Source of the DNA: a virus
Direction: 5' to 3' (one strand)
Virus record (IMG/VR): IMGVR_UViG_3300010883_010460
Location: 1-58,233 of that record
Length of the DNA: 58,233 nt
Shown here one piece after another: positions 12,531 to 46,680 of this stretch. Position numbers and translations under genes: made by a program. Below the pieces are notes generated by a model. It was given only the letters and a program-made list of their open reading frames with translations. It did not search any database and was not told where the DNA came from. Within the stretch, counting starts at the first letter, position 1; the number at the start of each line of letters is the position of its first letter.

Positions 12531-13666
12531 GGGGTAGCCGCCGTTACGGGACGCAAGTAGGACAAAACCGTGACCCGCTTATAGCCCGGATCGGTCTCTT
12601 CCGAAACCAGCATCCAACCGCCCTTGTTCATCGTCTTACAACGCATCTCGACCTTATCAAGGTGACACAGGTTGAGCAGCCGAAGGAGGTGGTCCTGGCT
12701 CACGAAGAAGCCGTAAGCCTCCTCTGTGGGAACCTCGGGAGACAAGTCTGCATCAACAGGCTGAACAAGCGTCTTGCCCGACGTGGACGACATCGAGAAG
12801 ACTACCTCCCCATCACCGCTCCGCTCGATGCCCAAACGGTTATCGTCCCAAGACGCACCGGAGGCGAGAAACCGGATGGCCGTAGCGACTTCATCCGTAG
12901 GCATCTGCCATGCCTCGTGGAAGTCTTCCTCGTCAATCCGAAGCTCGGGGAAGGCGTCCTTGGGTCGAGCCTCACCGAAGACCGCACCGCTGGCGTGGAC
13001 AAAGAACTGAGCCTTGTCGCATTCCATGATGGCCACCTCAGTGGAGTCCAACTGCGAAAGGAAGCTCATTGCGGATGAGATGTCCTTGCCGTGAATCCTA
13101 ATCTTGGAGTTCTCCAGACCAGGGACCTCTACGAAGGTGGCTCCTGTCGTGTCAGTCGCGTAGATACGCCCCTCTCGGGCTTCCACGACACAGAGGTGAG
13201 GCATCTGATGCTCCTCACCACACACGAAGGCGCGAGAGTGCTGGAGTGCCCCGTGCAGATGGTCTGCCCGGACCTTTCCTGTCTCGGAGGTCGAAGCGAG
13301 CAGCTTGTCCCACCAGGGGAAGGTCGTGGGGTCCAGACTCTGAAAGATGTTCTTCCCACGAGGAGCCATTGCCACAACCTCCATCGAATCCTTCAGATGG
13401 AGTTGGATTTCAACCTCGTTGGACAAGGTCTTCAACCACAAGTCGAGACGCTTGGCTTCGACTGTAAAGGGTGCCCCAGAGGTAACCGTGGCACCCTCAA
13501 GAGGGGCACTGGCAAACGTCTTACCGGAGAAGCCGTGAACCGAGACGACATCGTCTATCTCTCGGAAGACGTAGTGAGAGGTGATGTCTCCGCCGGAGCC
13601 GGAAACGCAGGATCGGACGAAGTTCAAACTCGTCCTTAGGTCTTCAATCGCAATCGAAACATTCAT
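12527..13666 (-). CDS. dnaN: DNA polymerase III beta sliding clamp-like protein
   Basis: 379 residues, close to the 366 of E. coli beta. Three repeated strand-rich domains can be seen (about 1-125, 126-250, 251-379). The C-terminus, KRVTVLSYLRPV, resembles the end of beta clamps where partner peptides dock, but continues for a few residues. Sequence similarity is low, so this rests on architecture, length and context with DnaX, delta, delta', primase and DnaQ genes. A strong AAGGAGATATACA precedes the ATG. It would tether the replicative polymerase, which is not encoded in the window. Confidence 0.75.
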   Translation of the reverse strand: MNVSIAIEDLRTSLNFVRSCVSGSGGDITSHYVFREIDDVVSVHGFSGKTFASAPLEGATVTSGAPFTVEAKRLDLWLKTLSNEVEIQLHLKDSMEVVAMAPRGKNIFQSLDPTTFPWWDKLLASTSETGKVRADHLHGALQHSRAFVCGEEHQMPHLCVVEAREGRIYATDTTGATFVEVPGLENSKIRIHGKDISSAMSFLSQLDSTEVAIMECDKAQFFVHASGAVFGEARPKDAFPELRIDEEDFHEAWQMPTDEVATAIRFLASGASWDDNRLGIERSGDGEVVFSMSSTSGKTLVQPVDADLSPEVPTEEAYGFFVSQDHLLRLLNLCHLDKVEMRCKTMNKGGWMLVSEETDPGYKRVTVLSYLRPVTAATP

Positions 13667-19818: not shown

Positions 19819-19847
19819 GTTACGGGGAGAGTACCCATGAGGCACCC
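19819..19847 (-). promoter_or_regulatory. phage promoter motif P4 (SSB candidate, resolvase, recA)
   Basis: GGGTGCC, then CCGTAAC after 22 bp. It faces the SSB candidate across an untranslated leader of about 75 nt. The spacer half ATGGGTACTCT is shared in part with P7. Confidence 0.65.
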
Positions 19848-28730: not shown

Positions 28731-28756
28731 CTTAGGGGTGGGTGTTTATGGCGGGT

Positions 28757-30793: not shown

Positions 30794-31143
30794 CAGTTCA
30801 CCGGAACCAAAGGGTTTAGGGGGTCGTCGTCTGTGCCCGCAACGGTGTAGTTGATCCACCAGCGGCCTTCCTCATCCTGGAAGCACTGACAAGCAGCCCC
30901 AGGGCAGAACCGACAGAACTCCTCGTTATCATCCCCTCCATCCCAGAGGTCCTCGTCATCGAGGTCCTCGTCGATCTGGACACAACACTCCGGGGTCCGG
31001 GCACAGTGGTCTGAGATGTAACGCTCGCCCCAATGGGTCTCTTCTTCCCACATGATCTCCCCAGCGGAATCCACAAGCGTATCCATCGGGTCTCCCACGC
31101 AGGAGAGCGCCAGGACCACAGTGAACAGGGAGAGGAGCTTCAT
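30793..31143 (-). CDS. small lipoprotein
   Basis: 116 residues beginning with a lipoprotein signal peptide: basic MK, hydrophobic LLSLFTVVLA and lipobox LALSC, with Cys15 the predicted lipidated residue. The mature part is very acidic and Cys-rich (ECCVQ, FCRFCPGAACQC). Phage lipoproteins may act in lysis (spanins), superinfection exclusion or surface masking. It has no coiled coil, which argues against an o-spanin. It overlaps the gene before it. Confidence 0.75.
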   Translation of the reverse strand: MKLLSLFTVVLALSCVGDPMDTLVDSAGEIMWEEETHWGERYISDHCARTPECCVQIDEDLDDEDLWDGGDDNEEFCRFCPGAACQCFQDEEGRWWINYTVAGTDDDPLNPLVPVN

Positions 31144-31364
31144 CGAGCCCTCAGCAGGAGGAACAACTCTTTGTGGTCCTCTTCGATGGTGGAGGTCTTG
31201 CCATCGTCCGGGAGGCTGGAGAACTCATTCAGGAGGTTGGCAGCAAGCTCAACCGAGCCGCCCATCTCTTCAATCTGACCTATCGGGAGGCCCAGGTCCT
31301 TGGCCAACTCGTTAGCCAAGTGCTGAAGCCTCAGCTTATCCTTGAGGTCTATGATCTGGCCCAT
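31140..31364 (-). CDS. small hypothetical protein
   Basis: 74 residues from the ATG at 31364 (GAAGGAG upstream), helical and rather acidic. The first gene of the lipoprotein operon, whose probable promoter lies at about 31502-31535. Nothing identifiable. Confidence 0.62.
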   Translation of the reverse strand: MGQIIDLKDKLRLQHLANELAKDLGLPIGQIEEMGGSVELAANLLNEFSSLPDDGKTSTIEEDHKELFLLLRAR

Positions 31365-31501
31365 GCCCCTGCTCCTTCTTAGGTTGATCAGCCCAATCGA
31401 ACAGGTCAAGCTGCACGCCTTCAAGCGGGAACAGCGTGAGTTGTTTCGGGAGGGTCTGTTTTTTCTTTGTTTGCACAGTCATCTCTGTACCACCTTTGAA
31501 C

Positions 31502-31516
31502 CTACAAACAGAGTAC
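31502..31516 (-). promoter_or_regulatory. variant promoter-like element of lipoprotein operon
   Basis: GTACTCTGTTTGTAG on the minus strand, almost identical to the element upstream of Lon (54144-54158). The bases before it (ATGGG) also match the spacer of motif P4, but the GGGTGCG half is missing. Confidence 0.4.
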
Positions 31517-32041
31517 CCATCAGGTGCGGGCTCCCGATCCTTGAAGAAAGCTCTTCAAGGAAGTTGCAGAACAGGACGACCTACGGTAATGGGTGGGCAG
31601 CTCTTTTTCGTTGGAGCCCCCCAGTCACCCCCGATTGAGGGTTCCCTCCAAGACCGAAAGGTTAGCGGTTTAGCCTACCGCTCAGAGTGCTCTGCACCAG
31701 AGACAAGTAAAGGCCGTTGGGTCCCTAAGGTCGGTAAGACTAAGGGGTTGGAGAAGAGCATCCTGCTCTTCTCATTACGTCCTCCTCCCCAGGGGTTTCA
31801 GAAGGGAGACCGTAAAGGTGTTCTTACTACTTGTAGTAGTGGAACACGAAGGACGTAGTCCTGAGGGTTCAACGAAGATGAAGAAGAAACGAATCGAACA
31901 ACAACACCAACTACGACACCAACACCTACGCCTACGACTGATACTACGATAGAAGCGGATACTCGAAATCGAGACACCCCACAAAAACATGCGATACCCA
32001 GGGTTGGGGTTGGGGAAGCTGTAACCACTGATGAACTTTGG

Positions 32042-32083
32042 GCTCACTTGTTTCGATAAAGTGAGCACTTGTTTCGATAAAGT
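32042..32083 (+). repeat. direct repeat pair with overlapping palindrome
   Basis: CACTTGTTTCGATAAAGT occurs at 32045-32062 and again at 32066-32083 (21-bp period). The first copy lies within GCTCACTT-N9-AAGTGAGC (32042-32066). It looks like a tandem protein-binding site, 55 bp before the next gene. Confidence 0.7.
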
Positions 32084-32137
32084 ATCGAGCCATTAGATGG
32101 TCTGCCTATGGGACCCTCCTGCTGAGGAGGTGAGTCT

Positions 32138-32536
32138 ATGGACCCCGTAGCCAAAGAAAATCATGCCGCACGAGCGATCCTGTATGTAGCCAAGGGGATC
32201 TGTCGCTGTGAGTTCCCTACGTCTCATGTGGCGGCATACTCCAAGCGAGTCATGATCACTCAAAATGCCTCTCCTGTTACTGTGAACGGTCAACCTGTGG
32301 TCTTCACTGACACCTACTTTGACGCTGAACTCTGGCATCTGATAGCACCCAGTCTCCCCACTCTGGGTGCGATGCCCTTCAAATCTGAAGAAGACCTTCT
32401 GCCCGTTGCCGTTGCGGTTCTTCGAGATGCCCTTGAAGAGTACAGGACCCCTAACCACCTGGTCGAGTCCCCGGAACACCCCGCAGGTCGCAGGACTCCT
32501 GGCTGGGAAGCTAAGAACGACCCTTTCGATCCTTGA
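32138..32536 (+). CDS. hypothetical protein
   Basis: 132 residues with GAGGAGGTG before the ATG. Mixed alpha/beta with a Pro/Arg-rich C-terminal tail. No motif recognised. It is the first plus-strand gene after the structured gap, and the direct repeats just upstream probably control it. Confidence 0.7.
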   Translation: MDPVAKENHAARAILYVAKGICRCEFPTSHVAAYSKRVMITQNASPVTVNGQPVVFTDTYFDAELWHLIAPSLPTLGAMPFKSEEDLLPVAVAVLRDALEEYRTPNHLVESPEHPAGRRTPGWEAKNDPFDP

Positions 32537-45704: not shown

Positions 45705-45723
45705 GAACTTTCTTGAGAGCAGG

Positions 45724-45752
45724 GGGTGCGCTTTTCGACCCCCACCCGTAGA
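45724..45752 (+). promoter_or_regulatory. phage promoter motif P18 (large non-coding RNA)
   Basis: GGGTGCG, then CCGTAGA after 22 bp, immediately before the large RNA. GGGGGT/ACCCCC pairs across the spacer. Confidence 0.75.
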
Positions 45753-45801
45753 GGGGATAGAAGCGAGTTGCTCTTTCAAAACACGATTTGATTTACTGGA
45801 T

Positions 45802-45944
45802 GGTTCGGGTTCGACCCCCGGCAGCGTACATTTTGGGTGCGCTGAGAGTTGGAACACCGAAGGTGATATGACAACAGAGTGGGAACAGGGTTCGGGTTCG
45901 ACCCCCGGCAAGTCCGTCACCAAGGGCTTGAGAGTTGGAACACC
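45802..45944 (+). repeat. tandem repeat inside the large RNA
   Basis: Two units about 87 bp apart. Each has GGTTCGGGTTCGACCCCC (from 45802 and 45889), which folds as a tRNA T-arm-like hairpin, and then TGAGAGTTGGAACACC (45843-45858 and 45929-45944). The segment between them differs. Confidence 0.8.
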
Positions 45945-46640
45945 CCCCACACTGAAACCAGACGCTCTTTCATATTCCAGTTTGCGACCCCCGGTGCTTG
46001 CACTGAGGGAAGCGGATGACCCTGCTGTCGGGTCACAAAACCTTCGTACCCCTGCCGGGTCGTCGGCCTCCTTCGGGAGGATAGCCAGAACCCCGATTGG
46101 GAAGGTGGTCTTCGCAGGCCATGCCGCCCAATCTGTGAGGGGGGATGAGTTATGCGGCGTGGAAACCGCGAGAATCATCCAGTGTCCCAGCGCGTGAGCC
46201 GACATTCCACTGTCGGAGTGCTGCAAAGGGAAGTCCCGTACTTGCTGATTCAACGGGGCAACGGTTGCAGGGCATAACCAAAACGAAAGTCTTGGGAAGT
46301 GGCGTCGGTCACAGAATCGGACTGCTGGGTGCAGAAGCCTCTCTGGTCATTGGAGCAATCTGGTGATCGTCCCGAAAGGGGGTAGCAGGAGTTCTTCCCA
46401 AGAGAACGAATGTTGCCGTGTGGAGGAAGGGAGAAGTGTACAGCTTACCCTCCGATACACAGAATGCAGGTCAGCAGTATCGCGTGCTGTTCCGTCCTTG
46501 GAAACAGGGAAGAACAGGGAGGAACGCCGTGAACAGTCTTACTGGCTGGTGTTCACACTCCTAACCCGCAAGGGGACAGGCTCAAAAGGCTTGGAGGTCA
46601 CGGTTGGAGGCAAGCCAATGTGTGCTTGTTTGTCTCTTCT

Positions 46641-46680
46641 GGGCGGGTCATCCCTAAAGGGTGGCCCGCCCTCTTTTTTT
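46641..46680 (+). terminator. rho-independent terminator of the large RNA
   Basis: GGGCGGG at 46641-46647 pairs with CCCGCCC at 46665-46671, with an inner CCCT-AAA-GGG hairpin, followed by T at seven consecutive positions. It is the strongest terminator in the window. Confidence 0.92.

Follow-up and report, generated by a model that had tools for sequence, protein, structure and literature searches.

A non-coding gap at positions 31483-32137 of the window, by which we mean the whole 58-kb fragment analyzed here (positions 1-58,233 of IMG/VR virus record IMGVR_UViG_3300010883_010460), appears to be the place of a module that related huge phages carry as a structured RNA, a low-complexity tract, short repeats and a conserved uncharacterized protein termed X. 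Since in several genomes this module coincides with a switch in strand composition, it probably serves as the phage's origin of replication, and our preferred explanation, held tentatively at a little under an even chance, is that the gap both represents this module and is the origin, or lies directly at it.

The gap lies between divergent genes in a variable segment

From our own reading of its open reading frames we take the window to encode a polymerase III-like set (clamp, tau, delta and delta'), together with presumed RecD, RecA-like, RuvC-like, class II ribonucleotide reductase, GroEL and Lon proteins. Queries with ribonucleotide reductase, RecA and RecD retrieved a large group of huge phages, and the comparison was based on ~80 related huge-phage loci. 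The gap DNA or the flanking proteins alone gave no matches in phages or IMG/VR. The gene order of the core at 1-28 kb of the window is kept in these relatives, and the 28-40 kb region is a variable segment with delta' on one side and, at 40.3 kb, a large conserved gene on the other. The ribonucleotide reductase matches in L016, L029, L032, L034 and other loci are ~1 kb longer than the query, which suggests inteins or introns in these relatives.

As the first-pass annotation had stated, genes diverge from the gap, with two minus strand genes (31336-31482 and 31140-31364) on one side and a plus strand gene (32138-32536) on the other. The first gene of the leftward operon codes for an uncharacterized 48-aa protein that has no family match and has a Shine-Dalgarno (SD) sequence, GGTGG, 5' of its ATG, while the second has homologs beside the equivalent site, hereafter called the slot, in L159 and L160 (tblastn 46-49%). 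The gap is assigned to the slot by synteny with gene X, and its codon scores are near or below zero in all six frames. An open frame at 31865-32059 is without a start codon, and a split gene at this location, considered for its Thr/Pro-rich look, was rejected on the missing start and the non-coding codon scores. A coding gene conserved in relatives, which the annotation had named as evidence that would count against its reading, did not appear, as none of the relatives examined has coding sequence in the slot.

A repeated promoter-like element, GGGGGTGCGCTTT-N5/6-CYCACCCGTAGAG, lies directly 5' of many gene starts in the window, with copies at 28732(-), 29434(-), 30008(+), 32537(+), 33558(+), 33923(+), 35365(+), 38952(+), 45722(+), 47184(+) and 54695(-). 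This element is absent within 31483-32137, and its use as a probe found no relatives that contain it. A variant motif, GGGTACTCTCCCCGTA, occurs on the minus strand at 19821, 27956 and 31511 of the window, and a weaker copy, GGGTACTCTGTTTGTA, precedes the leftward operon at 31.5 kb. A second non-coding stretch of ~930 nt (45722-46680) runs from a copy of the promoter element to a strong intrinsic terminator, contains a T-arm-like 22-mer twice (45802 and 45889), has no Rfam match but the neighboring tRNA-Asn, and is possibly a large phage ncRNA. The gap has zero similarity to the 45.7-47.5 kb RNA region of the window.

Hairpins, a U-poor tract and direct repeats in the gap

A stem scan bore out the strong hairpins that had been claimed for the gap by detecting two perfect 10-bp hairpins on the plus strand (31538-31561 and 31751-31773), where the frequency of such stems across the window predicts 0.1 in 655 nt. 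The fold of 31500-31960 has a z of -2.8 on the plus strand (0/100 shuffles) and of -2.2 on the minus strand, and in 150-nt windows the structure of the gap is moderate (z ~-2), with stronger spots present elsewhere in the window. Also read from the sequence on the plus strand are a GNRA hairpin (GACC-GAAA-GGTT, 31652-31663), which may correspond to the GNRA hairpin seen in relatives, and, directly 3' of it, a second hairpin (AGCGGT/ACCGCT, 31664-31682). A CTACG-rich low-complexity tract is present on the plus strand at 31875-31955, close to where it had been described (~31.88-31.95 kb), and is also found in L159, L200 and L211. With a T content of 11% in 81 nt it is better called T(U)-poor than "purine-poor", as it had been termed.

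The 18-bp direct repeat and overlapping palindrome reported at 32042-32083 are both present. Specifically, a repeat search located two 100% identical copies of the iteron-like sequence CACTTGTTTCGATAAAGT at 32045-32062 and 32066-32083, a spacing of 21 bp, and the stem scan located an 8-bp palindrome/hairpin (GCTCACTT/AAGTGAGC) at 32042-32066. Among 1000 shuffles of 31871-32137 the longest repeat was 12 versus 18 in the real sequence, and a window-wide search that tolerated up to 3 mismatches found no further copies of the 18-bp repeat. The repeat, the palindrome and the two 10-bp hairpins are beyond chance. Covariance models of Rfam families, including group I intron, GOLLD, ROOL and tmRNA, gave no match to the gap. 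A group I intron was considered for its R/S-like motifs (GACTA...TAGTCC) but rejected given the absence of an Rfam match at E<=10, and a 16-mer with an S-like motif elsewhere, weighed for the same possibility, turned out to be coding.

A covarying RNA adjoins gene X in related huge phages

Within the variable segment of G001, G002, G004, L155 and G003 a ~400-nt structured RNA is located beside short repeats and a low-complexity tract, and among relatives this RNA measures about 350-450 nt. Model R1 exhibits double changes at 17 of its 27 pairs (0/500 shuffles), which is far above slid controls, and the R2 alignment has 94% of cells paired with 92 double-change cells (again 0/500 shuffles). A covariance model remade on the correct strand found further members, and R3, a second RNA subtype, matched 13 loci, several of which were outside of its training set with E values of 6e-11 to 1.3e-6. 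The RNA is absent from Rfam. On this comparative evidence, the predicted RNA next to X is previously undescribed, with two subtypes and strong covariation, and the suggestion of a second ncRNA at this site is strongly supported as far as the relatives are concerned.

The RNA is located 5' of X and on the strand of X in 24/24 relatives where both were found, with the RNA match starting 296-867 nt upstream of X (24 loci), and it turns together with X where the module is inverted. Scans of whole records placed the only strong RNA match of each genome at the slot, and an additional hit in G004 (E=0.005) probably arose by chance. Between the RNA and X there is a low-complexity tract and, in many relatives, short repeats, such as GAGAATC eight times in G001, 32-bp units in G013 and a 20-bp-spaced 16-mer in L160. 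Repeats in the slots of L155, L193 and L184 are not beyond those of shuffled sequence. A 485-kb phage (L157, LR745208) has two GTGGATTGAAAC-type repeats ~110 bp apart in non-coding DNA upstream of delta' (12677-12816), a pair that may be CRISPR-like or iteron-like.

Our first reading put the RNA on the minus strand, which was overturned by three observations. The conserved loops are GNRA in 10/10 cases on the X strand versus UUAC/UUUC/UCAC on the opposite strand, of 47 slots (near-duplicates included) 27 have a C-GNA-G hairpin on the X strand versus 4 on the other, and fold energies favor the X strand in most members. The RNA is therefore placed on the X strand. G-U counts over all pairs favor the other strand, mostly through helix ends, and are even for internal pairs.

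The window carries gene X and small motifs of the module

An HMM of X that was built without the window identified 32138-32536, directly 3' of the slot, at E=1.1e-6 with the next ORF at 0.58, and an earlier four-sequence seed had identified the same gene at E=0.026. By this profile similarity 32138-32536 is a diverged member of the X family that is located 3' of the RNA. The window X has no match in Pfam or PHROG, and its AF2 model (pLDDT 84, residues 1-100 confident) has a predicted alpha-beta-alpha topology that has no match in the PDB, RNA-binding folds included. The SD of gene X is directly 3' of the 18-bp repeats. Relative to RecD, the window has the unit with X in inverted orientation, as do L198, L200, L202, L209, L211, L217, L227 and L229, and the X-bearing segment at 29.4-33 kb of the window is inverted versus L159/L160.

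The candidate structured RNA of the window extends approximately over 31490-31872 on the plus strand, as judged from the relatives, gene X and the fold, with 31491-31880 folding at z -4.3 on the plus strand versus -3.65 on the minus strand. Covariance models R1, R2 and R3 gave nothing significant in the window, so the suggested second ncRNA did not hold up by model match for the window's own copy. With these models silent, we infer RNA homology here, and membership in the module rests on synteny, the 3' hairpin, the tract and the repeats. The 3' hairpin (C-GTA-G, AGGACGTAGTCCT, 31850-31862, plus strand) precedes the low-complexity tract and by position would correspond to a conserved 3' hairpin that 10/11 relatives have at the same place; the window's hairpin is the longest of six C-GNA-G hairpins on the plus strand of the 58 kb. 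The short repeats at 32045-32083 likewise fall between the tract and X. Among X-upstream regions, nhmmer matched the gap to L211 (2.4e-4) and L200 (2.7e-3), 5' of X and on the correct strand, and the CTACG tract of the window resembles that of L211. The L159 and L160 loci have flanking genes in common with the window and the same succession of elements, namely structure, tract (L159), repeats (L160) and X. These observations suggest that the gap is the place of the RNA-tract-repeat-X module of relatives, with its RNA copy recognized solely by position and small motifs.

Strand composition at the slot

Transcription and the orientation of the core operon both confound GC skew. We compared a gene-strand-stratified GC3-skew step at the slot with circular shifts in seven genomes, the window, G003, G004, G005, G014, G018 and G029; G015, G016, G020, G021 and G022 were left out of this test, and some slot coordinates are approximate. 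Circular shifts that beat the slot numbered 0/98 in G004, 0/97 in G014, 0/102 in G029 and 0/59 in the window, and the step was nearly best in G003 (2/106) and G005 (2/76). Thus, the slot ranks first or nearly first in 6/7 genomes, the window included, with G018 failing (21/106). The breakpoint of an unstratified search fell within 0.2 kb (G003) or 2 kb (G005) of the slot, was 11-19 kb off in G004, G018 and G021, and was non-significant in G014, G015, G016, G020, G022 and G029. Detrended cumulative GC skew reaches its minimum at the slot in the 536-kb G003 and in G005; in the circular, 402-kb G004 the minimum is close by and the maximum roughly opposite.

The origin reading of the first-pass annotation thus gains from the stratified step in the window and five relatives, accompanied by repeats, and is weakened by the failure of G018. 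No DnaA box (by eye) or AT-rich unwinding element was identified in the gap, and the GC content of 31001-32000 is 53.5%. Origin-like bidirectional GC skew is reported for ~30% of huge phages (PMC7162821).

Competing explanations

The main rival to an origin module, which we consider somewhat unlikely, is that the RNA is a long structured 5' leader in the X mRNA that controls X in cis and is perhaps bound by X, with the repeats as operators. The co-orientation, adjacency and joint flipping of RNA and X at 24/24 loci would suit such a leader, as would the position of the SD directly after the repeats and the alpha-beta-alpha topology of the predicted X model, but repeats and a variable tract lie within the 296-867 nt from the 5' end of the RNA to X, no RNA-binding fold matches that of X, and the GC-skew step is left unexplained.

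We think it very unlikely that the RNA stands on its own as a GOLLD/ROOL-like ncRNA with a structural or catalytic-scaffold function and is only incidentally near the skew switch. Covariation, absence from Rfam and one strong match per genome are all compatible with this, but the RNA is tightly linked to X and the slot, is apparently shorter than GOLLD/ROOL, and is not followed by a convincing terminator. An ordinary divergent promoter region, with chance hairpins, 18-bp repeats as repressor operators and an RNA that the window has lost, would agree with the missing R1/R2/R3 match, the only moderately stable fold and a 21-bp spacing suited to two operators, but is likewise improbable given the retained 3' hairpin, tract and synteny and the lack of the phage's own promoter element in the gap.

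A possible RNA-dependent replication origin

If the gap is an origin module, a transcript running rightward through 31.5-31.87 kb would fold, and the unstructured U-poor tract that follows (31.875-31.955) would either stay paired with the template or expose it beside the repeats (32045-32083). An initiator on these repeats, perhaps X, could then melt the duplex, after which bidirectional synthesis would be started by the polymerase III-type clamp and loader that the phage itself encodes. In the least certain step, the RNA may prime or license this synthesis, as RNAII does in ColE1. That the slot is an origin, that the RNA acts as a primer or licenses synthesis, and that X is the initiator are all conjectures from sequence comparison.

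ColE1-type plasmid origins are RNA-primed by RNAII, a transcript that is processed into the primer at the origin. The putative module would resemble RNAII in being a structured transcript that runs into a weakly structured tract at an origin. It differs in having no sequence relation to RNAII, in that no RNAI-like antisense is shown for the slot, and in that the phage has its own polymerase III-type clamp and loader; priming is proposed here by analogy. As portrayed in the accessible portions of PMC4980987 and PMC7466680, iteron origins (lambdoid O-protein iterons and iteron plasmids) share short direct repeats with 18-21 bp spacing and a small uncharacterized protein adjoining them, whereas the window has only two copies, the repeats vary by lineage, and X is outside the known initiator families. 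The phage-associated ncRNAs GOLLD and ROOL, as far as the available text of PMC12286853 describes them, are likewise large structured RNAs carried by phages, but the slot RNA has no Rfam match, is ~350-450 nt and is tied to one gene and a skew switch. The huge-phage GC-skew origins differ in that no linked RNA or gene is mentioned in the accessible part of PMC7162821.

A bolder extension, which we regard as quite unlikely, would see a new RNA-dependent class of origin here, in which the conserved structured RNA, the single-stranded tract, the iterons and X as a new dedicated protein together make up an invertible cassette that initiates replication throughout a broad huge-phage clade. With its covarying RNA and single conserved protein at a skew switch, the module offers a concrete candidate origin across dozens of uncultured phages, and its RNA adds a class that Rfam lacks.
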